From Martelella lutilitoris (GTDB lineage: Bacteria > Pseudomonadota > Alphaproteobacteria > Rhizobiales > Rhizobiaceae), in NCBI RefSeq assembly GCF_005924265.1, contig NZ_VCLB01000004.1, forward strand, positions 248,001 to 312,000: a DNA stretch of 64,000 bases. Reading direction: 5' to 3'. The notes beneath the pieces were generated by a model. It did not search any database and was not told the origin of the DNA. It was given only the letters and a program-made list of their open reading frames with translations. The position numbers and the translations under genes are program-made. The first letter of the stretch is position 1, and the number at the start of each line of letters is the position of its first letter. Shown piece after piece: positions 42,552 to 55,399 of the stretch.

Positions 42552-43373
42552 TCAAGCGCGATACTTCTCCGGCGGCCAGTTGTCCGACGGCATAGGGGCG
42601 TTGGAAAGGTCCGTGATCAGCGCCGCGAGGCTTGCCGCCGTGTGCTCCAGCAACGCCCTGCCCTTTTCCGCCGTGGAGCGGCGCGCATCGCCGGTCACGC
42701 CGTCGGCATTGAGGTCCTGCGCCTTCCAGCCGAGGCCGCCGACGCGGCCGCCGCCGGGATTGGCGGAAAGCTGTGTCGTGCCCGCCTCGATCTCATCGAC
42801 GGAAGAACGGAAATCGTCGAGATTTTCCATCACCACCAGGTCCGGGTGCAGGGCCAGCATCAGTGACGTTTCGATATCGCCGCCGTGAAAGCCGGTGCGG
42901 ATTTCGTCGTCGGTAAAAAGCCCTTCCGGATAGCCGGCATCGAACCATGTGGCATAGGCGCCGAGAATGTTGTGGCGTACGCGCTGGTCGAGCGCGACGG
43001 CGGCAAGCAGCCCCGCCTGTCCGCCATGGCTGTTGAAAATCAGAATGCGCTTCAGCCCGGTGGAGCGCACCGCGCAATCAAGCACACGCGTCCAGGATTG
43101 CATCAGATCGGGCGCGGGATGGGCGAGCGAACCGGCATAATCGAGATGTTCCTGCGAGGCGCCGACCGGCTGCAGCGGCAGGACGACGGCTGGAACATCA
43201 TCGCCAAGCTTTTTGAGCGCGGCCGAGACAATGCCGCTATTGATCAGGCAATCCGTGCCGACCGGCAGGTGCGGTCCATGCTGCTCCGTCGCGCCGACGG
43301 GCAGAACCGCCACCGTGTTCTCCGGCAGCGCCGCATGCTCCAGCGATGTCATTTCAAGCCAGTAGCGTTTCAT
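42552..43373 (-). CDS. Creatininase-family amidohydrolase
   Basis: A 273-aa metal-dependent amidohydrolase of the creatininase/ArfB/MftE family. Metal ligands are visible in PVGATEQHGPHLPVGTDCLI (E, H, D near residues 30-42), in FNSHGGQ (H near 120) and in FHGGDIETSLML (HGGD, E). Family members open cyclic amides (creatinine) or hydrolyse formamides of purine-like intermediates. It is the last gene of a leftward operon with ADP-ribosylglycohydrolase, PfkB kinase, nucleoside phosphorylase and ABC importer genes; its ATG overlaps the stop codon of the ADP-ribosylglycohydrolase gene. A ring-opening or deformylation step on a nucleoside-derived base is plausible but unproven. Confidence 0.85.
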   Translation of the reverse strand: MKRYWLEMTSLEHAALPENTVAVLPVGATEQHGPHLPVGTDCLINSGIVSAALKKLGDDVPAVVLPLQPVGASQEHLDYAGSLAHPAPDLMQSWTRVLDCAVRSTGLKRILIFNSHGGQAGLLAAVALDQRVRHNILGAYATWFDAGYPEGLFTDDEIRTGFHGGDIETSLMLALHPDLVVMENLDDFRSSVDEIEAGTTQLSANPGGGRVGGLGWKAQDLNADGVTGDARRSTAEKGRALLEHTAASLAALITDLSNAPMPSDNWPPEKYRA

Positions 43374-44422
43374 CCCTGCTCTCCCGCAATCACCTTTTCA
43401 TTGAATGTTGCAAGCCCCTCGGCAATACGCGCCAGATCGAGCCCGTTGACGGCCGAGACCTCCTCGATCAGTGCGAGCGGAATGCCCGCCGCGCCGTTCC
43501 AGGCGGCAGCTACCGAACCGGCGATCATCGCGATCGTATCGCTGTCATTGCCGCCATTGACGGCAGCGACGATTGCCATCCACGGGTCGCCGTCTGCGGC
43601 GGCAACAAGGCCGAAAGCATGCGGCACGGCTTCCGACATGGCAACGCCATTGCCGATGACCTCGATCAGTTCGGCCCGTGCGGTCTCGATATCCGCCTTG
43701 TAGCGAATGCCGATCTCGACCGCCATCTCGATGCGGCGGGCAACGCCTGCGCCGCCGACAATGCGGCCACTGCGATGCGCTTCCACCTCGCCAAGCCGTG
43801 CGCCCTCGAGCGCTGCATCGACAATCGTCATCGAACGCCCGGGCGAAAGCCCGACGGCAATCGCGCCCGCAACAGCGGAAGCGCCAGCGTAAGCGATCTG
43901 GGTGTTGTGTGTCGGCGCCGACATCAGGCAGGCGATGCGGACGGCCTCGGAGAGGTTTCCAGCCGCTGCGCACCCCGCCGTCGGCGCGCGCATGGCGCCG
44001 CCATTCGAGGTGCCGAACATGCAGGAATAGGCCTCGGGCGTGGCAACGGCTTCGGCGGGCGCGCCGGCGCGCATGGCCTCGACTGCAATGCGGGTCGTCG
44101 GCCCGGCAAAGCGCTGAAACATTTCCTCGTCATGTGACCAATCGATGAAGCCGGCAATCGCGTCGGCGGAAACCGGCGCACGCTCAAGCCCGATGATGCG
44201 CTTGGCCATGGCCAGCATCTGCGTCGCGTCATCCGTCAGCCGGCCCGGCGCCAGTCCTTTGGCGAAGGGGGATCTTTCCGGCGGCGTGCGAAACGTCGTC
44301 ACCGGCCCGCCAAAAATACGGAAAATCTCGTCCGGGTGCATGCATTCTGTGGCAGCGCCCAGCGCATCGGCGACACAGGCGGCCGACAATACGGCCTCGA
44401 TGGCTTTCGATCTGGTGGCCAT
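43370..44422 (-). CDS. ADP-ribosylglycohydrolase (DraG) family protein
   Basis: A 350-aa protein of the DraG/ARH fold. Binuclear metal-binding signatures are LTDDATQM (T63-D64-D65) near the N-terminus and GGNDSDTIAMIAGS near residue 290. DraG-type enzymes cleave N-ribosyl bonds from ADP-ribosyl-arginine, and some related proteins hydrolyse other N-glycosides. Here it lies between PfkB kinase and creatininase genes in a nucleoside-type operon, so a small-molecule glycosidase role is more likely than protein deribosylation. That is inference from context. Confidence 0.87.
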   Translation of the reverse strand: MATRSKAIEAVLSAACVADALGAATECMHPDEIFRIFGGPVTTFRTPPERSPFAKGLAPGRLTDDATQMLAMAKRIIGLERAPVSADAIAGFIDWSHDEEMFQRFAGPTTRIAVEAMRAGAPAEAVATPEAYSCMFGTSNGGAMRAPTAGCAAAGNLSEAVRIACLMSAPTHNTQIAYAGASAVAGAIAVGLSPGRSMTIVDAALEGARLGEVEAHRSGRIVGGAGVARRIEMAVEIGIRYKADIETARAELIEVIGNGVAMSEAVPHAFGLVAAADGDPWMAIVAAVNGGNDSDTIAMIAGSVAAAWNGAAGIPLALIEEVSAVNGLDLARIAEGLATFNEKVIAGEQG

Positions 44423-44425
44423 TGT

Positions 44426-45361
44426 CTACAGTCTTTCCTTCATCTTGTCTTTCATCAGCGCTTCCGCGCCCGCGCCGTCGCAGCGTCCCGTTTCCAAGAA
44501 ATGCGCGGCAGCGGCCGTGCCGAAGGTCAACGCCTTTTCGAATTTGCGTCCGCGCCGTGTCGCCGTGGCGAGGCCTGCGAGAAACACATCGCCGGCGCCT
44601 GTGGTGTTGCGCGGCGTCACCTTGTGCGCGCGAAGGCGGTGAACGGTTTCACCGTCAATCGCGACCAGACCCTCGGAGCCGAGCGTGACGACGGCCCTGC
44701 GGCTGCCATTGCCGGAGAGGAAACGGGCAAGCGCTTCGGCGGCTTCGGCAATCGGCCGGTCATTGCCGGTGCGCGCCATCCATGCCTCAAGCACCTGCCG
44801 GTTGGTGACCACGACCGAGGCGAAGGGCAGGATGTTTTCCATCGCCTGCCAGCCCCAGCGCTCGATCTCCGGCAGCTCCAGATCGATCATCCTCTCGATG
44901 CCGGTTTTCGCGGCGCGATCGAACATCCGCGCCACGGCTTCGGGATGGAAGAAATTGGAGACGACCGTATCGTCTGCCTGCAACGAAACGCTGTCGCCGA
45001 TCACCGCCAGCGTTTCGACCGGAACGGGATCGATCAGGATCGCCTTCTCGCCGGTTCGGTCGACGATGATGGTGGCGGACGCCGTGACGCTGTCGGATTG
45101 CACGTCAACGGCCTCCGTGCTCATGTCGCGCTCGGCGAGCCACTGCATCAGGATCGCGCCCTCGCCGTCATCCCCGATCGTGGAGACCAGCCGCGCATCC
45201 TCGCCAAGCCGGCTCAGCGCCCAGGCGCAATTGAGCGGCGGACCGCCGGCGCGTTCTTCCTTTTGCTTGATGAAAGCCTTCTCGTCGTGGCCAGGCAGGT
45301 CGTCGACGGTCAGTATCCGGTCGAGCACCAGCGGGCCGAGGCAATAGATCGCGCCGCTCAT
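44426..45361 (-). CDS. PfkB/ribokinase-family carbohydrate or nucleoside kinase
   Basis: A 311-aa kinase of the ribokinase fold. Signatures are AGGPPLNCAWALSRLG (about residues 38-53; usual GGxxxN motif) and the catalytic NTTGAGDVFLAGLA (about 255-268, base D). The substrate could be a ribose, a nucleoside or a pseudouridine-like compound; sequence alone cannot decide. Its ATG overlaps the stop codon of the ABC ATPase gene (ATGA). The DraG-family gene begins 3 bp after its stop codon, so the operon is translationally coupled. Confidence 0.88.
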   Translation of the reverse strand: MSGAIYCLGPLVLDRILTVDDLPGHDEKAFIKQKEERAGGPPLNCAWALSRLGEDARLVSTIGDDGEGAILMQWLAERDMSTEAVDVQSDSVTASATIIVDRTGEKAILIDPVPVETLAVIGDSVSLQADDTVVSNFFHPEAVARMFDRAAKTGIERMIDLELPEIERWGWQAMENILPFASVVVTNRQVLEAWMARTGNDRPIAEAAEALARFLSGNGSRRAVVTLGSEGLVAIDGETVHRLRAHKVTPRNTTGAGDVFLAGLATATRRGRKFEKALTFGTAAAAHFLETGRCDGAGAEALMKDKMKERL

Positions 45362-46461
45362 GAGTGCGCGACCCTGGCGCCGGTGTCGGGATCGAAGAGC
45401 AGCGGCTCGGCCTCGTCGATGCGGATATGGGCGACTTCGCCGAATTGCGGCGGGCGTTCGCGCGTCGGCACGGCGATGCGGTGTTCGCCGAGCGCCACAT
45501 GCACCAACCAGGAGCCGCCGATATATTCGCTGGAATGCACCTCGCCGGTGATCGTCAGCGGGCCGGCCTCATCGGCAAAGGATAGCCGGTCGGAGCGGAG
45601 CCCCAGCAGCACCGGCTTGCCGTTCTGCATCGCGATTGCGGCGGCGAGTGACCTTGATGGGGTGAAGGCCGTCCCGCCGATGCCGTAGCCCTCGCCAGTC
45701 TTTTCCACCGGCAGAAGGATCGCCGGCGGGCTGCCGACGAAGGTTGCCACGAAGGCGGATGCCGGATGCTCGTAGATCGTCTCGGGCGTATCATGCTGCA
45801 GCACGTAGCCATTGGCCATCACCGCCACGCGGTCGGCCATGCTCATCGCCTCTTCCTGGTCATGGGTGACCATGACAGTGGTGAGCCCGATACGCTCATG
45901 CAGTTCGCGAATATCGACGCGCACGCTTTTTCTCAAGACCGCATCGAGATTGGAAAGCGGCTCGTCGAGAAGCAGAAGCTTCGGCCGGATGACGAGCGCA
46001 CGGGCGAGCGCCACGCGCTGCTGCTGGCCACCGGAAAGCGCATTCGGCATCCGGCCGGAAAGCCCGTCGAGCTTGACCAGATCGAGCGCCTCTTCCACAC
46101 GGTCATCGGCCTCCTTGCCCTTGATGCCGCGCATATCGAGGCCGAAGCGGATATTGGCGTCGACCGTCATATGCGGAAACAGCGCATAGGACTGGAAGAC
46201 GATGCCGATATCGCGCCTGTAGGTCGGGATGGCATCGAGCCCCTCGCCCGCCAGCGCCATCTCGCCCTCGGTCGCCTTTTCAAGGCCGGCGATGATCTTC
46301 AAGAGCGTGGTCTTGCCGCAGCCCGATGGGCCGAGCAGCGCCAGGAATTCGCCCTTGCGCACATTGAGGGACACGCTTTTCAGCGCCGGCTCGCCTCCGC
46401 CGCCGTAGTGCTTCATCACCTTCTGGATCACCAGGTGGTCGGGTGCGTGCTTCTCAGCCAT
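45358..46461 (-). CDS. ABC transporter ATP-binding protein, polyamine/iron type
   Basis: A 367-aa importer ATPase of the PotA/FbpC type. Walker A is GPSGCGKTTLLK (about residues 41-52), signature LSGGQQQRVALARAL (about 140), Walker B LLLLDEPLSNLD and switch VTHDQEEAMSMAD. A C-terminal TOBE-like domain follows (about 245-360). It would power the two permeases and binding protein encoded upstream in the same operon. It overlaps the nucleoside phosphorylase gene by 8 bp. Confidence 0.93.
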   Translation of the reverse strand: MAEKHAPDHLVIQKVMKHYGGGGEPALKSVSLNVRKGEFLALLGPSGCGKTTLLKIIAGLEKATEGEMALAGEGLDAIPTYRRDIGIVFQSYALFPHMTVDANIRFGLDMRGIKGKEADDRVEEALDLVKLDGLSGRMPNALSGGQQQRVALARALVIRPKLLLLDEPLSNLDAVLRKSVRVDIRELHERIGLTTVMVTHDQEEAMSMADRVAVMANGYVLQHDTPETIYEHPASAFVATFVGSPPAILLPVEKTGEGYGIGGTAFTPSRSLAAAIAMQNGKPVLLGLRSDRLSFADEAGPLTITGEVHSSEYIGGSWLVHVALGEHRIAVPTRERPPQFGEVAHIRIDEAEPLLFDPDTGARVAHS

Positions 46462-47281
46462 GGGCGTCCTCCCGGAAAAGCCTTGCGAGCGCGGAAAGTC
46501 CGACGGTGATCGCCGCCGTCTGACCGGAGCCGGATTTGTGCAATTCGCCGGTCACCACATTGTCTCCGACCGAGCAGACCGCGCCGCCGCGCCGTCCGTA
46601 AAGGCTGCAAAGCGTCAGGATCGCGGCCGCCTCGCGGTCCGTGTTGAGAACGCCGGCGCGGCTCCAGTAATCGATGATCTGCTTGTGGTCTTCCTGCAGA
46701 TAGCCGCCCGGACCCGGCTTGCCCCAGCCGCAATATTCGCTGTCGCCCGAGCGGGTGATGCCGATGTGATAGGGATGGCCGACTTGATCGGCCGCCGCCT
46801 TCATCGCGCCGACCACCTGCCAGTCGGCAACGGCCGGGTATTCAGCCCGAACATGAGCTTTCGTCATGCCCTCGTCGCGCACCGCGCCGGAGGAGATGAC
46901 AATATCGCCGACGCCGACCTTCGGGCTCCACGCGCCGCAGCCGCCAATGCGGATAACGGTGGTGCAATCGGTGAAGTTGAAGAGATCCATCAGCGCCAGT
47001 TCCGCCTCGGGCGAGCCGGAGCCGCCGGAAACGATCGAGACCGGCGCGCCGTCATAACTACCCGTCACCGTGGTGAAGAGGCCCGTCTTGGCGGAGATCT
47101 CGGCATTGTCGAGGGCGGCGGCAAGCGAATCCTCCTCCGCGCCGTCGCCGACGACCAGCGGATCCTTGACGGCAAGCACGACGTAAGGGGCGATGCGGTC
47201 GCGTTTGAAGCCTGTCAGCAGCGGCACGCCGTCGCGCACGAAATGCGGCATGGTTTTGAGATAGCGGTATTCTTCGGGCAT
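46454..47281 (-). CDS. Nucleoside phosphorylase (PNP/UDP family)
   Basis: A 275-aa enzyme of the purine nucleoside/uridine phosphorylase family. The phosphate-site-like VSGGSGSPEAELALMDL and RIGGCGAW stretch (about residues 65-105) match the family's GxGxPSxxIxxxEL and GTCG motifs. The late DREAAAILTLCSLYGRRGGAVCSVGDN (about 220-245) covers the base-binding and catalytic region. It would split a nucleoside and phosphate to ribose 1-phosphate and base. Position between the permease and ATPase genes of an importer is unusual and links it tightly to the imported compound. Confidence 0.88.
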   Translation of the reverse strand: MPEEYRYLKTMPHFVRDGVPLLTGFKRDRIAPYVVLAVKDPLVVGDGAEEDSLAAALDNAEISAKTGLFTTVTGSYDGAPVSIVSGGSGSPEAELALMDLFNFTDCTTVIRIGGCGAWSPKVGVGDIVISSGAVRDEGMTKAHVRAEYPAVADWQVVGAMKAAADQVGHPYHIGITRSGDSEYCGWGKPGPGGYLQEDHKQIIDYWSRAGVLNTDREAAAILTLCSLYGRRGGAVCSVGDNVVTGELHKSGSGQTAAITVGLSALARLFREDAHG

Positions 47282-47294
47282 TGTTCTTTCTTTC

Positions 47295-48089
47295 TCAAAG
47301 ACGGCGTGACCATTTGAACATGAATTCGCCGATCAGCGCGGCGACAAGGATGAAGGCGACGATCGCCGAACCGATGGCAAGCGTGATCGGGTCGATGCCC
47401 TGGCTTCGAAGCTGGGCGTAAAGCCGAACCGGAAAGGTGATCCAGCGCGCGCCGGCAATCAGCGAGGAGACGATCACGTCGTTGAAGGAGATCAGCACGG
47501 AGAAGGCAGCGGACGAGACAAGCCCCGGCATGGCAAGCGGAAGCGTGATGCGCCGGACAACGCGGCCGGATGACGCGCCGAGCGTGGCGGCGGCCTGTTC
47601 CAGCAGCGGATCGAGATCGGCGAAGGTGGAGACCATGATGCGCACGGAAAAGGGCATGGTGATCACCGCATGGGCGAGCACCAGCGCCGGCAGCGTGCCG
47701 GACATGCCGAGACGCGAATAGATCTGCAGAAGCGCAATCGCCCAGACGATCAGCGGCAGCACCAGCGGCGTCATCAGGATCGCCTCGACGATCCGCCCGC
47801 CGGCGGGCCTGTAGCGCACCAGGGCAAAGGCCGCCATGGCGCCGAAAAGGACGGCGATGAAACCTGCGAGGATCGCGACCAAAAGCGAGACCGACAGCGC
47901 GCTTTTATATTCCCGGCTTTCAAGGGCGGCGTCATACCAGCGCAAAGAATAGGCCTTTGGCGGAAAGCGGAAGAAACTCGCATCATCGAAGGAGGCAAAG
48001 ATCAGCACCGCGATCGGCGCCAGCAGAAAGACGAAGGCGAGAACGGTCCAGACAAAGCGGGCCGAAACGGCGAACCCATAGGTTTTCAT
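47295..48089 (-). CDS. ABC transporter permease 2, polyamine/iron type
   Basis: A 264-aa permease of the PotC type. Six hydrophobic segments and the EAA loop LEQAAATLGASSGRVVRRITLPLAMPGL (about residues 160-190) are clear. Its start at 48089 overlaps the stop codon of permease 1 by 4 bp. A longer in-frame extension to 48995 lies over permease 1 and is a frame artefact. Confidence 0.93.
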   Translation of the reverse strand: MKTYGFAVSARFVWTVLAFVFLLAPIAVLIFASFDDASFFRFPPKAYSLRWYDAALESREYKSALSVSLLVAILAGFIAVLFGAMAAFALVRYRPAGGRIVEAILMTPLVLPLIVWAIALLQIYSRLGMSGTLPALVLAHAVITMPFSVRIMVSTFADLDPLLEQAAATLGASSGRVVRRITLPLAMPGLVSSAAFSVLISFNDVIVSSLIAGARWITFPVRLYAQLRSQGIDPITLAIGSAIVAFILVAALIGEFMFKWSRRL

Positions 48090-48934
48090 GCAGGCCTCCG
48101 TGCGAGCAGTTTCGAGGCAAGCGAGCCGATCGCAAGACCGAGCGCCAGGATCGCCAGCATGACGACGGCAATGGCCGAGGCAAACGGCCAGTCCAGCACC
48201 AGCGAGGCCTGCTGATAGGCCATGGTGCCGAAGGTGGCGATCTTGCCCTGGCCGAGGATCTGCGGCGTGACGAAGGAGGTGAGCGAGGCGCAGAACACCA
48301 GCACCGAGCCGGCAATGATGCCCGGCGCAATCAGCGGCAGGATAACGCGCCGCCAGACGATGAATGTCGGAGCGCCGAGCGTTTCGGCAGCGGCCTCCAC
48401 ATCCTTTGGCAGCCGCGAAAGCGCATTGACCAGCGGCAGCAGCATCAGCGGCAGGAACGCCTGCACCAGACCGATGATGACGCCCGGCACCGTGCCGAGG
48501 AACTTGACGCTGCGGGTGATCAGTCCGAGGTCCTTGAGGATGGAGTTGATCACCCCGAGCGGGCCCAGAAGATGCAGCATGCCGAGCGTTGGGAGCAGCG
48601 CGCCGGAGACGAGCGGCACCAGAATGAGCGCCAGCAGCAGGCCCTTGGCCCGGCCGGCGCTGACGGCGATCTGGCGCGCCATCGGCAGCGCGATGACAAG
48701 GGAAAGCACGGTTGCCGCTGCGCTCATCCAGATGGTGCGGAAGAAGACCTCGGCGAAGTATGTATCGGACACCAGCCTGGCGTAATTGGCCGCGGAAAAA
48801 CCTTCCGCCATCAACAGCGAGCCCTCCCCCTGCACCCGGAAACTGGTGACGAACAGCCACAGGAAGGGAAGCAGGAAGACGATGCCCGACAGGACGAGTG
48901 CCGGCATCAGCAGCATGAGCGCGCGTTTGTTCAT
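48086..48934 (-). CDS. ABC transporter permease 1, polyamine/iron type
   Basis: A 282-aa permease of the PotB type. Six segments and the EAA loop VEAAAETLGAPTFIVWRRVILPLIAPGI (about residues 190-218) are visible. The ATG at 48934 (MNKRALMLLMPALVL) is chosen; a GTG three codons upstream is possible. The gene lies 72 bp after the binding-protein gene, with a strong hairpin between them. Confidence 0.92.
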   Translation of the reverse strand: MNKRALMLLMPALVLSGIVFLLPFLWLFVTSFRVQGEGSLLMAEGFSAANYARLVSDTYFAEVFFRTIWMSAAATVLSLVIALPMARQIAVSAGRAKGLLLALILVPLVSGALLPTLGMLHLLGPLGVINSILKDLGLITRSVKFLGTVPGVIIGLVQAFLPLMLLPLVNALSRLPKDVEAAAETLGAPTFIVWRRVILPLIAPGIIAGSVLVFCASLTSFVTPQILGQGKIATFGTMAYQQASLVLDWPFASAIAVVMLAILALGLAIGSLASKLLARRPA

Positions 48935-48964
48935 GAAAATCACCGGATTGCCGCGTCACCGAAA

Positions 48965-48994
48965 TGCCGCCGCACCGGTTGCGGCGCGGCGGCA
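48965..48994 (-). terminator. Intercistronic hairpin after the binding-protein gene
   Basis: TGCCGCCGC (48965-48973) pairs with GCGGCGGCA (48986-48994) in the gap between the binding-protein and permease genes. There is no T tract, so it is more likely an mRNA-stabilising or attenuating element. Such elements give excess binding protein in many importer operons. Confidence 0.55.
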
Positions 48995-49006
48995 AGGGTC
49001 GTGGGC

Positions 49007-50038
49007 TTACTGTTCGAGCAGTTCCTTGTTCCAGCGCTGGGTCCAGTCGCTGCGCTCACCGATCACATAGGGCCAGTCAAGCTGCACCAGGCTTTCGACT
49101 TCTTCCGGCGTGTCGATCACGTCGGCGGAGGCTTCCTCGGAGAGTTCGACCATGGAGTTGGTCGGACCGAAGAAGATCTGCTCGGCGTAGTCGGTCTGGT
49201 TTGCAACGCCGAGGGCCTTTTCGGCGAACATCTTTGCAAGCTCCGGCTCGGGGCTGTCCTTGACCAGGCACAGCATGTCGCGCACCAGAACCGGGCCGGG
49301 ATCGCTCGGGAAGGAGAAGCCGATATCGGGGTGCTCCTTCAGCGCCGACAGAACGTAACCGGAAATCATCGGGGCCATGGCCACTTCGCCGGCATCCATC
49401 ATGGCGAAGATCTCGTCGAGATTGGTGTAGGTCATGGCGATCGGCTTCAGTCCCTGGAGCTTCTCGAAAGCGGCATCGGGATCATGCTCGTCGGCGCCCG
49501 CGAGACGCGCGGCAACGCCGATCAGGCCATCGCCTTCCGAACCCGGATACTGGGCAACGGCAATCATGCCGTTATATTCCGGGTCCCACATGTCTTCCCA
49601 TTCCGGCGCTTCGGAAACGATGTTCTTGTTGTAGGCAATGCCGAGGCCGACCAGCGACATGGCGTAGCAGCCATTGTTCATGCCGTCCCAGATGGCCTTG
49701 TACATGTCGGTTTCCGGATCCGGCGGCAGCACGATGCCATCGGAAAGCGCCTGCGGAGCCTCGTACATGTTGAGGAAGGCGACATCCATGGTCGGATTGT
49801 CCTTTTCCGCATAGATGCGGGCCATGCGGTCGCCCGTGCCGCCGAGGACGAATTCGACGGACGCGCCGGTTTCCTCTTCGATCGGCTCGGCGACGTTTTC
49901 GCGCAGCAGGCGTTCGATATCGCCGCCCCAGACGCCGACAACGAGCGTGTGGCCGGAATAGTCGTCAGCGGCGAAGGCGCCGGCGGCGGGCAGGCCGATG
50001 GCGCCGGCAAGAAGGGCTGTGGTCAGTTTCTTCAGCAT
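49007..50038 (-). CDS. ABC transporter substrate-binding protein, polyamine/iron type
   Basis: A 343-aa periplasmic protein with a signal peptide (MLKKLTTALLAGAIGLPAAGAFA-AD, cleavage near residue 23). The rest has the PotD/Fe-type fold, with GHTLVVGVWGGDIERLLRENVAEPIEEETG near the start and VGLGIAYNKNI in the middle. The ligand is unknown; the operon context (nucleoside phosphorylase, PfkB, DraG-like, creatininase-like) suggests a nucleoside or related N-compound. It is the first gene of the leftward operon, so its promoter is in the 167-bp gap to the LysR gene. Confidence 0.92.
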   Translation of the reverse strand: MLKKLTTALLAGAIGLPAAGAFAADDYSGHTLVVGVWGGDIERLLRENVAEPIEEETGASVEFVLGGTGDRMARIYAEKDNPTMDVAFLNMYEAPQALSDGIVLPPDPETDMYKAIWDGMNNGCYAMSLVGLGIAYNKNIVSEAPEWEDMWDPEYNGMIAVAQYPGSEGDGLIGVAARLAGADEHDPDAAFEKLQGLKPIAMTYTNLDEIFAMMDAGEVAMAPMISGYVLSALKEHPDIGFSFPSDPGPVLVRDMLCLVKDSPEPELAKMFAEKALGVANQTDYAEQIFFGPTNSMVELSEEASADVIDTPEEVESLVQLDWPYVIGERSDWTQRWNKELLEQ

Positions 50039-50205
50039 GATGTTCCAATTCCCCTTGTTTTGTCTGATTGGCTGAAACCCGGGTCGCGGACATGTCGGCC
50101 GCTTGCCGTGTGTCAAGAAGAGGTCCGCAGAAGACCGGCTCTCTCGAAACCAATTAAACGGCAGGAATTGACGTTTCATAAGACCCCTTGCCCCAATAGA
50201 CTCTA

Positions 50206-51207
50206 TTAGTTCCCACGAATGGCTTCGGGCGAAGTTTCACTTGATGGATGGGGTGTGAATTCGCTTATCTCTTTGGCAACCCGGCGCAACAATTTCCTGA
50301 ACCACTGATTGCCGGGGGAGAGATGCGACCGTTCATGCCACAGCGTGTAAAAGCTCATCCGGGCCAGTTCCTCCGGCGCGCCGACAATCGAGAAGGCGCC
50401 CGACTGCGCCATCTGCTCGGCAAAGGGGCGGCTGCTGGTGAACACCAGATCGGTGCGTGCCAGCATATGCGGCACCAGCGTGAATTCGGCGACCGACATG
50501 GCGATCTCGCGCTTGGCGTCAAGCTGGGCAAGCTGCCCGTCGATGGGACTGATGGCCGGGCTCGTATGCGGCGTCGGCGAAAGATGATCGAGGTTCAGAT
50601 ATTCCTGAAGGTCGATGCGCGCGCGGCCTGCAAGCGGGTGTTCGTTGCGCATGACGAGAACGATGTCGGTCTCCAGCAGCGGCGCAAAACGCAGGTAATC
50701 GCGCGGCAGCGGCCAGTTGCCGATCACCAGATCGAGCTTGCCCTCCTCGAGTTCGGTAAATATCCGGGATTCCTCAGGGATTGTGCAGAAATCAAGCGGC
50801 ATGTTGGGCGCTTCGCGGCGCACCAGTTCGCCAATGCGCGGCATGAAGAAGGTCCCGAGGCAATTGGCCGCGTAAACGCGGAAGCGGCGATTGTAGCTTG
50901 CCGGATCGAACGTATCCTCGGAGACGGCGAGCGCATCGATCTCGCGCAGAATGTTGGACACCTGGGCGCGGAGCGCAATGCCCTTGTCCGTCGGGATCAG
51001 CTTCACGCCCGAGCGCACCAGCAGCGGATCGCCGAGAATTTCGCGAAGCCGCTTCAGCGCGAGCGAAACGGAAGGCTGGCTCTGTCCGAGTATCGTGGCG
51101 GTTTTCGAGACGCTGCATTCATCAAGCAGCACGTCGAGAATGCGCATCAGGCGCAGGTCGAGTCCGTGGTCTCCGGCTGGTGTGGCCAAAACATGGGTTC
51201 CTTTCAC
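50206..51207 (-). CDS. LysR-family transcriptional regulator
   Basis: A 333-aa LysR protein. The helix-turn-helix lies at about residues 28-60 (SVSKTATILGQSQPSVSLALKRLRE), followed by the effector domain (about 105-310). The start used is a GTG at 51207 without a strong ribosome binding site; nearby internal starts are possible. It lies on the same strand as, and upstream of, the ABC/nucleoside operon, and is divergent from the amidohydrolase gene at 51326. It may therefore regulate both. Confidence 0.87.
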   Translation of the reverse strand: MKGTHVLATPAGDHGLDLRLMRILDVLLDECSVSKTATILGQSQPSVSLALKRLREILGDPLLVRSGVKLIPTDKGIALRAQVSNILREIDALAVSEDTFDPASYNRRFRVYAANCLGTFFMPRIGELVRREAPNMPLDFCTIPEESRIFTELEEGKLDLVIGNWPLPRDYLRFAPLLETDIVLVMRNEHPLAGRARIDLQEYLNLDHLSPTPHTSPAISPIDGQLAQLDAKREIAMSVAEFTLVPHMLARTDLVFTSSRPFAEQMAQSGAFSIVGAPEELARMSFYTLWHERSHLSPGNQWFRKLLRRVAKEISEFTPHPSSETSPEAIRGN

Positions 51208-51325
51208 AAGGCTCGCCGGATCGCCCCCACCACAGGCGGCCCGGTCGGCTTAACGTCGTCCCCGGTAAAAAATTTATGCAATTTTCATGCCGCCTGAACA
51301 AAGCGGCGGCCAAACGGAGTAAAGC

Positions 51326-52831
51326 ATGGCAATCCTGATCAAGAACGGCCTCGTCATCAACCAGAAAACCGGCGCGCACAGCTTTGCGAGCGGCGATGTG
51401 CTGATCGATGGTGACCGGATAATAGGCAAAGGCGGTGATCTTTCGGCACGCGCCGCCGGCTTTCAGGATCTGCAGGTGATCGATGCGTCCGACAAGCTGG
51501 TCATGCCGGGCTTCATCGATGCGCACATGCATTCCAATGAAGGCTTCGAGATGGGCCGCTATGACAACCTGCCGCTCGAAATCTGGCTGTCGGAGGTCTA
51601 CCCGCCCTTCGGATCGCCGGCGATGACATGGCGCGAGCATTATCTGCGCGCCATGCTGGTCGCGATCATCTCGCTGCGCTCAGGCGTCACCACGCTGCAG
51701 GACGATGTGATCAACATTACGGGCACACCCGAAGCCGTCGACGCGACGGCCACGGCCTTCCAGGACGCCGGACTGCGCGCCTGGATCACGGCCTCCATGT
51801 GGGACGAGAGCTATTGCAACAGCCTGCCCTTTGTCGGCGATCTCGTACCGGCTGAGATGAAAGCGCGGCTCGATGCCATGCCCGCGCCGGACTGGAAGGC
51901 GCAGATCGAACTCTTCGAGGAGCTTTCCGGCAAGTGGCACGGCAAGGACAATATGCGCATCATTCTCGGCCCCTGCGGGCCGCAGCGCTGCTCGGAGAAG
52001 CTGTTGCAGGAAGTTGCAGGGCTTTCCGAAGCGCGCGACCTGCCGGTCCATTGCCATGTGCTGGAAACCAAGACCCAGGCCGTGACCGGCGCGGAGAAAT
52101 ACGGCCGCACGCTGGTTCAGTTCCTGAAGGACATGGGGCTGATGACCCACCGCCTGACCATGAACCACGCGATCTGGCTGACCGATGAGGATATCGCGAC
52201 GATGGGCGAGGCCCGCTGCTCGACGACGCATAACCCGCTGGCGAACCTGAAGCTCGGTTCCGGCGTCTCGCCGGTACGGCGGATGATGAATGCCGGCGTC
52301 AATGTCGCGCTCGGCTGTGATGGCGTGGCGTCGGCCGATACCGCCGATATCTTCGTCGCCTTCAAGGCGGCCGCCGGGCTGCACAAGATCGGCACGTTCG
52401 ACTATAATGACTGGATTTCGGCGCATGAGGTCTATGACATGGCAACCACGTCTGCCGCGCGCTCCAGCCTCATGGAAAAAGAGGTCGGGACGCTGGAAGA
52501 AGGCATGCTCGCCGACGTCATCCTGATGGACAAGACCGATTGGGGCTTCATGCCGCTGCATGACCCGATCAAGAAGATCGCCTTCTCGGTCAATTCCGAT
52601 GTCGTCACCCATTCGATCGTCGGCGGCAAGCTGGTGATGGAGGATCGCAAGCTCAAAACCGTCAACGAGAATGATCTGCGCGGCGAAATTGCCGAGGCCG
52701 CCGCGAAATTCGAGCGTGACCACTGCCCGGAAATGAGCAAGGGTGCGGCGGAAGTCCGGCCCTATCTCGACCAGATGTACGACACGGCGACAACGCGCGA
52801 AATCGGCCTTTATCCGCGTGTGAAAGTGTAA
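51326..52831 (+). CDS. TRZ/ATZ-type amidohydrolase (putative deaminase)
   Basis: A 501-aa metal-dependent amidohydrolase of the cytosine deaminase/TrzN/SAH-deaminase group. Metal-binding motifs are FIDAHMHSNEGF (HxH near residues 67-69), HCHVLETKTQ (H near 235), NHAIWL (H near 275) and LGCDGVASADTADIF (D near 330). Family members deaminate or dechlorinate N-heterocycles and nucleosides. GGAGTAAAGC precedes the ATG. The DenD-like gene begins 15 bp after the stop codon, so they form an operon. Confidence 0.88.
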   Translation: MAILIKNGLVINQKTGAHSFASGDVLIDGDRIIGKGGDLSARAAGFQDLQVIDASDKLVMPGFIDAHMHSNEGFEMGRYDNLPLEIWLSEVYPPFGSPAMTWREHYLRAMLVAIISLRSGVTTLQDDVINITGTPEAVDATATAFQDAGLRAWITASMWDESYCNSLPFVGDLVPAEMKARLDAMPAPDWKAQIELFEELSGKWHGKDNMRIILGPCGPQRCSEKLLQEVAGLSEARDLPVHCHVLETKTQAVTGAEKYGRTLVQFLKDMGLMTHRLTMNHAIWLTDEDIATMGEARCSTTHNPLANLKLGSGVSPVRRMMNAGVNVALGCDGVASADTADIFVAFKAAAGLHKIGTFDYNDWISAHEVYDMATTSAARSSLMEKEVGTLEEGMLADVILMDKTDWGFMPLHDPIKKIAFSVNSDVVTHSIVGGKLVMEDRKLKTVNENDLRGEIAEAAAKFERDHCPEMSKGAAEVRPYLDQMYDTATTREIGLYPRVKV

Positions 52832-52846
52832 GGAAGGAACTCGCCC

Positions 52847-53809
52847 ATGGCCTCCGTCGCCATCATCGGCGCCTCCGGCATGATCGGCGCCAGGCTTGCC
52901 CGTACACTGATTGCACGCGGCGCGCTCGGCCGTAAGCGGCTTGACGCGCTCATCCTTTCCGATATCCGCAAGGGCACGATCGAAGGGGATGGAACAGAAT
53001 GGGTGACGGGGGATGCGGCGGAATTCGAGACGATCGGGCAGGTGGTGGCGTCCCGGCCGGACGTGATCTTTCACGTGGCCGCGACCGCCATGGGCCAGGC
53101 CGACAGCAATTTCGCCGTCGGCTATCACATCAATTTCGATACGGTGCGGGCGACCGTCGAGGCGATCCGGCTTGCCGGCGATGACTATTGCCCGCGCCTC
53201 GTCCATGCTTCGTCGATCGGGGTCTATGGCGCCCCCTTCCCGGCCCTCATCGATGATACGACAACGCCCCGGCCGGACAGTTCCTACGGCACGCAAAAGC
53301 TGATGAGCGAGGCGATCATCGCCGACTATTCCCGCATGGGCTTCTTGGACGGCATCTGCCTGCGCCTGGCCACAATCGCGGTCCGGCCCGGTAAGGCCAC
53401 CCATGGCAATTCCGGCTTCTTTTCCAACATCATCCGCGAACCGCTGGAAGGTCGGCGGGCGCTCCTGCCGGCTTCGGACGATGTGCGTCACTGGCTGGCC
53501 TCGCCGGAAACGGCGGTGGCGCAGCTCATCCATGCGGCAATCCTCGACGGGCCGATCCCGGCTGAAGCGCGGGCGCTCGTCATGCCCGGCGTGTCTCTGA
53601 CGGTCGAGGTGCTGCTTGCAGCGCTTGCCGAACGAGCGGGCGACGAGATGCTGTCGCTGATCGACCGCGCCGATCCGCCGGTCTTCGGACCGCAGGACTT
53701 CCCGGCCTGCTTCTCCGCCGAAACGGCTCGAAGACTCGGCTTTCCGCTGCTGGAGGAAAAGGCCGTGGATTTCATCGACGGCTTTTTGAGATCCCGCTTT
53801 CCGGCCTGA
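52847..53809 (+). CDS. NAD-dependent epimerase/dehydratase, DenD-like
   Basis: A 320-aa extended SDR similar to D-erythronate dehydrogenase (DenD). The cofactor motif is IIGASGMIGARLAR (about residues 6-19). The catalytic residues are likely S near 122 in VHASSIGVYG and YGTQK (Y near 146 with K four later). DenD-type enzymes oxidise four-carbon sugar acids at C2. Linked to an amidohydrolase and nucleoside-type genes, it could act on a sugar fragment. AAGGAAGG precedes the ATG. It ends 3 bp before the convergent Ntn-hydrolase gene. Confidence 0.85.
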   Translation: MASVAIIGASGMIGARLARTLIARGALGRKRLDALILSDIRKGTIEGDGTEWVTGDAAEFETIGQVVASRPDVIFHVAATAMGQADSNFAVGYHINFDTVRATVEAIRLAGDDYCPRLVHASSIGVYGAPFPALIDDTTTPRPDSSYGTQKLMSEAIIADYSRMGFLDGICLRLATIAVRPGKATHGNSGFFSNIIREPLEGRRALLPASDDVRHWLASPETAVAQLIHAAILDGPIPAEARALVMPGVSLTVEVLLAALAERAGDEMLSLIDRADPPVFGPQDFPACFSAETARRLGFPLLEEKAVDFIDGFLRSRFPA

Positions 53810-53812
53810 GGC

Positions 53813-55399
53813 TCAGTCCACCAGCGCCAGGCCATCCGCGCGCGGATCGGTTGCCGCTTCCATCAACCCGTTTTCGTGCAGCACCACGGCGCCGGCGTGC
53901 CCGGCGGCATCGGAAAAGGCCGGCAGCATCTCGACATCGTGTCCGGCCGCTTTCAAGGCCGCAACAAGGGCCGGATCAAAACGGTCCTCGAGCTTCAGCG
54001 TCGTGGTCTCCTCGCCCCAGGTGCGGCCCAAAAGCCAGCGCGGCGCGGTAACGGCCGCCTGCAGTTCCTCGCCGAACTGCACATGGCGCGAGAACACGGC
54101 GGCCTGCGTCTGCGGCTGCCCCTCGCCGCCCATCGTGCCATAGGCCATCACGCGGCCGTCCTTCAGATGCGCAAGCGCGGGGTTCAGCGTGTGAAAGGGG
54201 CGTTTTCCCGGCGCAAGCTGATTGGGACCGGGAGACAGCGAGAAGCCTGCGCCGCGGTTCTGGAAGAACACGCCGGTCTCGGGACAGGTCAACCCGGAGC
54301 CGAACTCCCAATAGACGCTCTGGATGAAGGAGACGACATTGCCGTATCGGTCCGCCGCCCCCATCCAGATCGTGTCGCCCTCCGCCGGCTCATAGGGCCA
54401 GGGCAGCGCCTGCTTCAAGTCGATCTTCGCGGCCAGCCGATCGAGCCTGTCATCGGCAAGCCAGTTCTGCGCGGGCTCTTCCATGAAATCCGGATCGCCC
54501 AGCCCTTCGTTGCGTTTGATGAAGGCCTGTTTGGTGGATTCGATCAGACCGTGGAGATGATCGAATCCTTCGCCCTCGGCAACGCCCAGCCGATCGAACA
54601 GCGCCAGGATCATCAGCGAGGCGATGCCTTGCGTCGGCGGGATCATGTTCATGAGCTGGCCATGCGATGTCTCGACGCGGAGCGGATCGACGATGCGGGC
54701 TTGATAGGCGCCAAAATCCGCAAGGCGCAGCGGCGATCCGGTCTCCTCAAGGAATGCGGCATGGGTGCGGGCGAGTTCGCCGGTATAATAGGACGATAAT
54801 CCTTCCGCCACGAGCTTGCGCAACGTTGCGCCAAGCGGTGTCTGGCAGAGCCTGTCGCCCGCCTTGGGCGACGCGCCGTCCAGCAGGAAGGTCTCGGCAA
54901 AGCCGGGCACATCGCGCAACCCGTCGAGCTTGTCAGCCGTGCACTGCGCCTGGTTTCCGGTGACCGCAATGCCGTTTTCGGCATAATGGATTGCGGAAGA
55001 GAGCAGGTCTTCGAGCGGCAGGCGTTTTTCATCCGCCACCAGAGACAGCGCCTTTTCCCAGCCGCCGATCGTGCCCGGTACGGTGAGCGCTGCAAGGGCC
55101 CCGCGCGTCGGCATCGCTGCCGCGAACCCACGGCTTGCATACCAATCGGGCGTCGCAAGTGCGGCCGCCTGCCCGCAGGCGGAAATGCCGGTCACCTTCT
55201 CGCCCGGCCTGTGGATCAGCCAGAAGCCATCGCCACCGATCCCGTTCATGTGCGGATACGTAACCGCGATCGTCGCGGCGGCGGCGACCATCGCCTCCAT
55301 TGCCGTGCCGCCGGCGCGCAGGATGTCGCGGCCGGCAAGCGCCGCAGCGCGGTGCGGCGCGGTGAAGGCTCCGTCAAAGCCTGTCGCGGAATGAAGCAT
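53813..55399 (-). CDS. Gamma-glutamyltransferase-family Ntn hydrolase, HpxW-like (oxamate amidohydrolase candidate)
   Basis: A 528-aa protein of the gamma-glutamyltransferase family. T343, in GDTIWMGAAD, is at the position of the N-terminal nucleophile made by autocleavage. The following DRYGNVVSFIQSVYWEFGSG matches the family's core. No signal peptide is visible, so it is probably cytosolic, unlike typical Ggt. Absence of a leader, the length and association with an HpxZ-like gene point to HpxW of Klebsiella, which hydrolyses oxamate to oxalate and ammonia. Substrate assignment here is inference. It ends the operon running left from the cupin gene. Confidence 0.8.
   Translation of the reverse strand: MLHSATGFDGAFTAPHRAAALAGRDILRAGGTAMEAMVAAAATIAVTYPHMNGIGGDGFWLIHRPGEKVTGISACGQAAALATPDWYASRGFAAAMPTRGALAALTVPGTIGGWEKALSLVADEKRLPLEDLLSSAIHYAENGIAVTGNQAQCTADKLDGLRDVPGFAETFLLDGASPKAGDRLCQTPLGATLRKLVAEGLSSYYTGELARTHAAFLEETGSPLRLADFGAYQARIVDPLRVETSHGQLMNMIPPTQGIASLMILALFDRLGVAEGEGFDHLHGLIESTKQAFIKRNEGLGDPDFMEEPAQNWLADDRLDRLAAKIDLKQALPWPYEPAEGDTIWMGAADRYGNVVSFIQSVYWEFGSGLTCPETGVFFQNRGAGFSLSPGPNQLAPGKRPFHTLNPALAHLKDGRVMAYGTMGGEGQPQTQAAVFSRHVQFGEELQAAVTAPRWLLGRTWGEETTTLKLEDRFDPALVAALKAAGHDVEMLPAFSDAAGHAGAVVLHENGLMEAATDPRADGLALVD

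Follow-up and report, generated by a model that had tools for sequence, protein, structure and literature searches.

The DNA analysed here (the window) is a stretch of 64,000 nucleotides from a Martelella lutilitoris contig (NZ_VCLB01000004.1, positions 248,001 to 312,000), in an assembly of 4,447,501 bases. It carries a ten-gene cluster that is conserved in several alphaproteobacteria and looks like an undescribed import-and-breakdown route for an unusual sugar-linked base. Read from high to low coordinates on the minus strand, the genes come in the order LysR, SBP, permease 1, permease 2, PNP, ATPase, PfkB, DraG and CREA. The LysR-family regulator (50206..51207, 333 amino acids (aa), GTG start, PF03466 and PF00126) is encoded 167 bp upstream of the solute-binding protein SBP (49007..50038, 343 aa; SBP_bac_8 PF13416, 66.2 bits for a cut-off of 27). 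After a gap of 63 bp come permease 1 (PotB-like, 48086..48943, 285 aa, GTG start) and permease 2 (PotC-like, 47295..48089, 264 aa) of an ATP-binding cassette (ABC) importer, both matching BPD_transp_1 (PF00528). The importer ATPase (45358..46461, 367 aa; ABC_tran PF00005, 133.2 bits, cut-off 25) is separated from permease 2 by the PNP gene (46454..47281), whose 275-aa product has the NP-I (nucleoside-phosphorylase) fold (PNP_UDP_1 PF01048, 101.8 bits, cut-off 25.1) and is proposed to be a purine-type nucleosidase. They are followed by a PfkB-family kinase (44426..45361, 311 aa; PF00294, 130.3 bits, cut-off 25.8), putatively acting on ribose (or a riboside), by DraG, a DraG/ADP-ribosylglycohydrolase-fold protein (43370..44422, 350 aa; ADP_ribosyl_GH PF03747, 153.4 bits, cut-off 26.2) and candidate ribosyl hydrolase, and by CREA, a creatininase-family metal amidohydrolase (42552..43373, 273 aa; Creatininase PF02633, 205.2 bits, cut-off 31.3) that may open an amide of the base. 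The successive junctions from permease 1 to CREA measure −4, 13, −8, −4, 3 and −4 bp. On the plus strand, divergent from the LysR gene, lies AMH (51326..52831, 501 aa; PF01979, 152.7 bits), a TRZ/ATZ-type amidohydrolase and putative deaminase of the free base; the 118 bp between the two genes (51208..51325) are, by position, a probable LysR-controlled promoter region.

The ten genes are arranged as one operon, and this arrangement suggests that they are transcribed as a single unit. A scan of the region for promoters and terminators remained at chance level, with three promoter-like sites (2.0 in shuffled sequences, standard deviation (sd) 1.5) and seven terminator-like sites (10.0, sd 3.5); none of the promoter matches listed falls within the 118 bp between LysR and AMH. 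We took the SBP start at 50038, though a longer frame opens at 50179, because a signal-like sequence begins there, the orthologous open reading frames (ORFs) of two other loci (L003 and L004) are 343 aa long and the upstream frame of L003 holds a stop. The original prediction, made from the letters of the window, had described a nucleoside uptake and degradation operon at 42552-50038; Pfam and the junctions confirmed that its genes all lie on the minus strand in the families it gave, with the overlaps and the placement of PNP between permease and ATPase genes. Its gene set was correct in the members named but incomplete, as the recurring LysR and AMH genes and the kinship with Escherichia coli yegTUV, described below, were missed. 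It had also treated the set as one without a known characterised pathway, and in the open-access literature, preprints being outside our scope, we likewise found no description of one.

We compared 18 loci besides the window, gathered by a DraG scan of genome contigs and by genome searches with DraG and AMH, duplicate genome records being reduced to one each. The contig scan gave 12 loci, in records titled Martelella, Pleomorphomonas, Prosthecomicrobium, Bauldia, Rhizobium lusitanum and Marinicella and in two further metagenome-assembled genomes; the closest named DraG records were those of Martelella radicis (93%) and of a record titled Marinicella sp. W31 (94% over the best segment). CREA and PfkB were present in all 18 loci, PNP, the ATPase and permease 2 in 17 of the 17 and AMH, LysR, SBP and permease 1 in 16 of the 16 where the contig reaches, and DraG in 16 of the 18, a count biased by the use of DraG as the query that retrieved most of the loci. 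DraG apart, the order AMH, LysR, SBP, permeases, PNP, ATPase, PfkB, DraG, CREA was kept throughout as far as the contigs reach. Identities of the ten proteins ranged from 37% (PfkB of L013) to 99% (permease 1 and ATPase of L002), and the mean column identity of SBP was 82% over 14 orthologues. With AMH as a separate query, 14 of 397 genomes of the order, the window's own included, matched at E ≤ 1e-120; PfkB and CREA occurred together in 12 of them, with DraG in between in 10 of these 12. Among the 10 is G306, whose DraG is broken into two frames (L100:8934-9918) in an operon otherwise present. Across the class, PNP as query matched 3 of 385 genomes: besides that of the window, two with 36-38% identity. 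The DraG-PfkB-creatininase triad singled out by the original prediction is not the invariant core, since two operons lack DraG and keep the rest.

Some of these sequences are imperfect: AMH of L007 lies in two frames, PNP of L005 contains undetermined bases, and the split DraG of L100 is missing from the DraG tree. L009, the Marinicella sp. W31 record, which is Martelella-like by identity, has PfkB and DraG matches broken over several frames (L009:9068-11040), from decay, sequencing error or a wrong label; it is counted among the 18 loci but was left out of the DraG alignment and the trees.

The association of DraG with PfkB extends well beyond this operon. PfkB stood beside DraG in all 29 loci of a search of the order (L029 and L043, two pieces of one split DraG, are counted twice in this figure, and the second matches of G370 (L059, PfkB present) and G293 (L060) are outside it), and near DraG in all 17 new loci of a phylum search, within 4 kb in 11 and about one gene further in six. 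The intervening proteins were scanned in three of these six (L088, L089, L095) and were all NCS1 purine/cytosine permeases. Proteins above the cut-off of the nucleoside permease model TIGR00889 adjoin the pair in L081 and L092, and a Nuc_H_symport protein does so in L087; other importers beside related pairs are of the Pot ABC type (L052 and similar loci) or include an SBP_bac_5 protein (L051). Because related pairs adjoin nucleoside symporters, purine/cytosine permeases or Pot-type importers, the substrate of the operon is likely, by association, to be a riboside. The DraG tree (41 rows) and the PfkB tree (43 rows), both limited by midpoint rooting and flagged long branches, separated the same two superclades (100/100), as would be expected of a pair evolving together. 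Superclade 1 contains this operon and an adenine deaminase-PfkB-DraG module, and superclade 2 the remaining DraG-PfkB loci.

This adenine deaminase module was found in six genomes (G293, G347, G225, G130, G278 and G099; L044-L048 and L111). Its DraG forms a sister clade to that of the operon (98/94) and its PfkB belongs to the same superclade, but it has an adenine deaminase instead of AMH, is divergent from isochorismatase and hyuAB (hydantoinase A and B) genes, and no importer was recognised beside it. The deaminase of L047 scored above the equivalog cut-off (587.9 of 472.5 bits), and the remaining five loci hold homologues at 83-95%. This deaminase gives the strongest hint of an adenine-like base. 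An AA_synth gene (PF06684) was seen in L107 at this module (L044-L048, L104-L108, L111).

The distribution of DraG-PfkB pairs spans Pseudomonadota and takes in E. coli K-12, where yegTUVW encodes a putative transporter, an ADP-ribosylglycohydrolase-like protein, a sugar-kinase-like protein and the GntR regulator GgaR. There as here, DraG-fold and PfkB genes adjoin each other next to an importer, YegU being 31% identical to DraG and YegV 33% identical to PfkB of the other superclade. The E. coli genes differ in having a nucleoside:H+ symporter (NHS) type transporter and GntR where the operon has a Pot-type ABC importer and LysR, in being without PNP, AMH or creatininase genes, and in the superclade of DraG and PfkB, which is the other one by proxy of enterobacterial-type loci. 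By adding a deaminase-like enzyme, an amide hydrolase and a nucleosidase-like protein, the operon is richer than yegTUV and points to ribosides of an aminated, amide-openable base. In the accessible parts of the respective papers, yegTUV is tied to glycogen/ADP-glucose via its regulator (PMC10819704) and a crystal structure of YegT is described (PMC11979927); the open-access literature found, as far as accessible, gives no substrate for DraG-PfkB pairs. In E. coli K-12, yegTUVW adjoins yegX, thiD and thiM (L112:3822-10302).

We propose, with a probability of about one half, that the cluster is a LysR-controlled operon for the import of a purine-type riboside by a Pot-type importer, followed by glycosidic hydrolysis, ribose phosphorylation, base deamination and amide opening. 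A purine-type (adenine-like or modified) riboside would enter through the importer under LysR control, and PNP would hydrolyse its N-glycosidic bond in the cytoplasm, with DraG hydrolysing a ribosyl linkage additional or alternative to this bond (an alpha-anomer or O-ribosyl form). PfkB would phosphorylate the freed ribose to ribose 5-phosphate, which would pass into central metabolism, while AMH would deaminate the free base and CREA would open an amide of the resulting product.

PNP has the fold and sequence family of uridine phosphorylase and the NP-I proteins (PF01048 and Foldseek), but its phosphate ligands are largely lost, its pyrimidine contacts changed and a purine-type Asp gained. 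These differences come from an alignment in which six orthologues, that of the window among them, were set against E. coli Udp, DeoD and Mtn and, as a control, a homologue from another setting (L102, 36% identical). L102 is also the one distant homologue in alignment A1. The phosphate ligands of Udp, which we take to be Gly26, Arg30, Arg48, Arg91 and Thr94, are all kept in the control, whereas Arg48 and Thr94 are Gly in all six orthologues and Arg30 is kept in one of the six. Val221 of Udp, Ser in the control, is Asp in 6/6 and aligns with D205 of DeoD (numbered from the initial Met) and D197 of Mtn, presumably the catalytic residues; the Asp of Mtn D197 and the Glu of Mtn E174 are present in every orthologue, and PNP retains the ribose Glu, E198 in Udp. 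At the pyrimidine contacts Gln166 has become Trp and Arg168 Lys or Arg, Phe162 is replaced by Glu, and Met197 by Arg in 6/6. The score with the uridine phosphorylase model TIGR01718 is 157 of 280.3 bits, below the equivalog cut-off, and the AlphaFold2 model reached a mean predicted local distance difference test (pLDDT) of 78.6 and a predicted template modelling score (pTM) of 0.81. Because three of the presumed phosphate ligands are mostly lost and the purine-type Asp is gained, phosphorolysis is doubtful; of the two modes of cleavage that the original prediction had offered, hydrolysis appears the likelier, and PNP would be an enzyme of the purine type without the ordinary use of phosphate, for which a nucleosidase is the simplest reading.

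Several features of PNP weigh against this assignment. Arg91 is kept in all six orthologues and Gly26 has become a basic residue (Lys/Arg) in all six; every one of the top 50 Foldseek matches is a phosphorylase by title; Mtn E12, which we take to be the Glu activating water, could not be matched reliably in the alignment; and the model is unsure at residues 40-49, 137-144 and 181-194. The kept Arg91, the gained basic residue and the fold matches would fit a pathway that is phosphorolytic after all: PNP would be a genuine phosphorylase whose phosphate site has been rebuilt, with ribose 1-phosphate or another sugar as the substrate of PfkB. The ribose-1-phosphate kinase model NF053626 is indeed the second-best NCBIfam match of PfkB (82.9 of 330 bits), but the substitutions at Arg48, Thr94 and Arg30, set against a control that has none of them, make such a pathway unlikely.

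PfkB belongs to its family and scores below the cut-off of the ribokinase model TIGR02152 (113 of 299.65 bits). The Asn of the GG..N motif, presumably the ribokinase motif in which this residue has its role, is not constant in the PfkB clade of the operon. In view of the weak ribokinase score and this variable Asn, ribose, ribose 1-phosphate and a riboside are all possible substrates, and the kinase might then act first: PfkB would phosphorylate the imported riboside, and DraG or PNP would split the 5'-phosphate into base and ribose 5-phosphate in the manner of PsuK and PsuG. In the accessible part of the account of pseudouridine catabolism (PMC9247573), PsuK is a PfkB kinase acting ahead of a glycosidase, and psuTGK has the same outline of import, PfkB kinase, glycosidase and ribose 5-phosphate. 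The Arg at Met197 of Udp in PNP might likewise meet a charged group. An early kinase step is nevertheless improbable, since there is no PsuG-type Pfam match among the ten proteins and the nearest named models of PfkB are sugar kinases. The operon further differs from psuTGK in its importer and in its extra base-degrading enzymes.

DraG is otherwise known as an enzyme that removes ADP-ribose from proteins. Operon DraG shares with ARH3 and the DraG ADP-ribosylhydrolases the fold and the presumed metal positions: E26, T63, D64, D65, D293, D295 and T296, which we take to correspond to the metal and catalytic positions of ARH3, are invariant in the 15 sequences aligned with it, in agreement with the PF03747 score. 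It differs in its catabolic operon context and in its score with the model of the dinitrogenase reductase-activating enzyme, TIGR02662 (42 of 337.05 bits). In CREA, E30, H32, D41, H116 and E168, presumably with a metal role, are invariant in 14/14 sequences, and the protein lies below every NCBIfam equivalog cut-off (creatininase TIGR04448, 70 of 235 bits; MftE, IolN and ArfB likewise).

AMH is nearest to the methylthioadenosine/S-adenosylhomocysteine (MTA/SAH) deaminases and the triazine hydrolases. A Glu that presumably binds ribose in MTA/SAH deaminases is found in the five solved relatives shown (4f0r alone carries MTA/SAH deaminase in its title), and the same position is F or L in 8/8 AMH sequences. 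In G095, AMH adjoins a cupin and an isochorismatase-family enzyme whose closest matches, RutB and biuret hydrolase, both score below cut-off; the same trio occurs in G293, and G347 has AMH with the cupin. Because the ribose Glu is missing and AMH stands elsewhere in a RutB-like amidase neighbourhood, its substrate is probably the free base. The succession of AMH and cupin (L130:9935-12713, L132:9493-12280, L131:8576-10578, with the isochorismatase-family enzyme in L130 and L132) is perhaps a separate heterocycle-degrading trio.

The strongest result against a nucleoside substrate comes from the importer, though the fold class is broad. The nearest solved relative of SBP by sequence and fold is 4edp, for which no ligand is named; the other solved relatives are binders of polyamines, opines (MotA, AgtB), hexose phosphates (AfuA), pyridoxal phosphate, gamma-aminobutyric acid or iron, and no nucleoside binder appears among the titles of the top 50 folds, the SBP model being a moderate one (pLDDT 71.9, pTM 0.66). 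The other importer parts scored best, below NCBIfam cut-offs, with PhnT2 (ATPase, 352 of 457.7 bits), PotC (permease 2, 143.1 of 326 bits) and PotB (permease 1, 150.5 of 348 bits). What stands of the proposed nucleoside uptake and degradation is a conserved import-catabolism unit whose substrate, judging from the DraG-PfkB neighbours and the phosphorylase fold, is probably nucleoside-like; the nearest SBP folds are not those of nucleoside binders. Other observations weigh on the same side. G095 has AMH but none of the other operon genes in the 20 kb examined, and a second DraG-fold gene of G293, 36% identical, has no PfkB nearby (L060:6777-7676). The accessible part of a study of YegT, the nucleoside-symporter relative adjoining DraG and PfkB in E. 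coli, reports that it does not transport gemcitabine, xanthosine, uridine or cytidine (PMC11241209).

The two operons without DraG, those of G293 and G347 (L130, L131), belong here as well, as they keep everything else. Both genomes carry DraG elsewhere, in the adenine deaminase module (L044, L048). The PfkB of these operons nests inside the DraG-bearing clade of the PfkB tree (99/98), so DraG was probably lost from them. Its absence there points to DraG as the accessory member of the two ribosyl hydrolases, and the presence of two different ribosyl hydrolases in one operon suggests a substrate with two ribosyl linkages or two anomers.

The opine binders among the SBP fold neighbours and the Pot and Phn scores of the importer would also suit a ribosylated or glycated amino compound (opine-like, or a ribosyl-amino acid), whose N- or O-ribosyl bond DraG would cleave, leaving the amino part to the other hydrolases; DraG-fold enzymes presumably hydrolyse ADP-ribosyl-arginine. 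Such a substrate is very unlikely, as it leaves unexplained PNP with its purine-type Asp, the deaminase-like AMH, and the nucleoside and purine transporters and adenine deaminase at related pairs. Cyclic t6A, 5-azacytidine and thiamine-related compounds were considered as substrates and dropped because no evidence pointed to them. Other readings were rejected: creatinine breakdown as the main function has the low creatininase score against it and no place for PfkB, DraG and PNP; nitrogenase regulation by DraG fails on its dinitrogenase-reductase score; polyamine or iron uptake alone, though compatible with the SBP fold, is at odds with the sub-cut-off scores of ATPase, permeases and SBP and misfits the enzymes; MTA/SAH salvage meets an AMH without the presumed ribose Glu and has no role for PfkB; and pseudouridine catabolism would call for a PsuG-type enzyme, absent from the Pfam matches of the ten proteins scanned.

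Returning to the hydrolytic riboside pathway, we can speculate further, and with considerable doubt, that the operon degrades a purine-like base bearing two ribosyl linkages or an alpha-ribosyl linkage, a class of ribosides without known catabolic route. Possible examples are ribosyl-adenosine from poly(ADP-ribose), the alpha-nucleosides of cobamides, or an oxidised purine riboside with an imidazolone-like ring that CREA could open; DraG would then be a nutrient enzyme and yegTUV a stripped-down relative. If this is true, proteins of the ADP-ribosylglycohydrolase fold, whose usual annotation is protein de-modification, can also serve as nutrient enzymes.

Two further genes recur near the operon. 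Downstream of AMH, the window encodes on the plus strand (52847..53809) an NAD-dependent epimerase-type dehydrogenase, erythronate-dehydrogenase-like (DenD-like; NF043036, 260.2 of 325 bits, below cut-off), that appears to be an optional part: it was found in six of the 18 other loci, four times beside AMH and twice downstream of CREA. An AMP-binding, acyl-CoA-ligase-like gene lies near the operon in 5/18 loci; the query was taken from L011, hence its 100% match there. The dehydrogenase gene of the window adjoins a 528-aa ORF (53813-55399), by eye gamma-glutamyltranspeptidase-like, which has counterparts at the corresponding position of L002 and L009; L003 and L004 stop at about this point.

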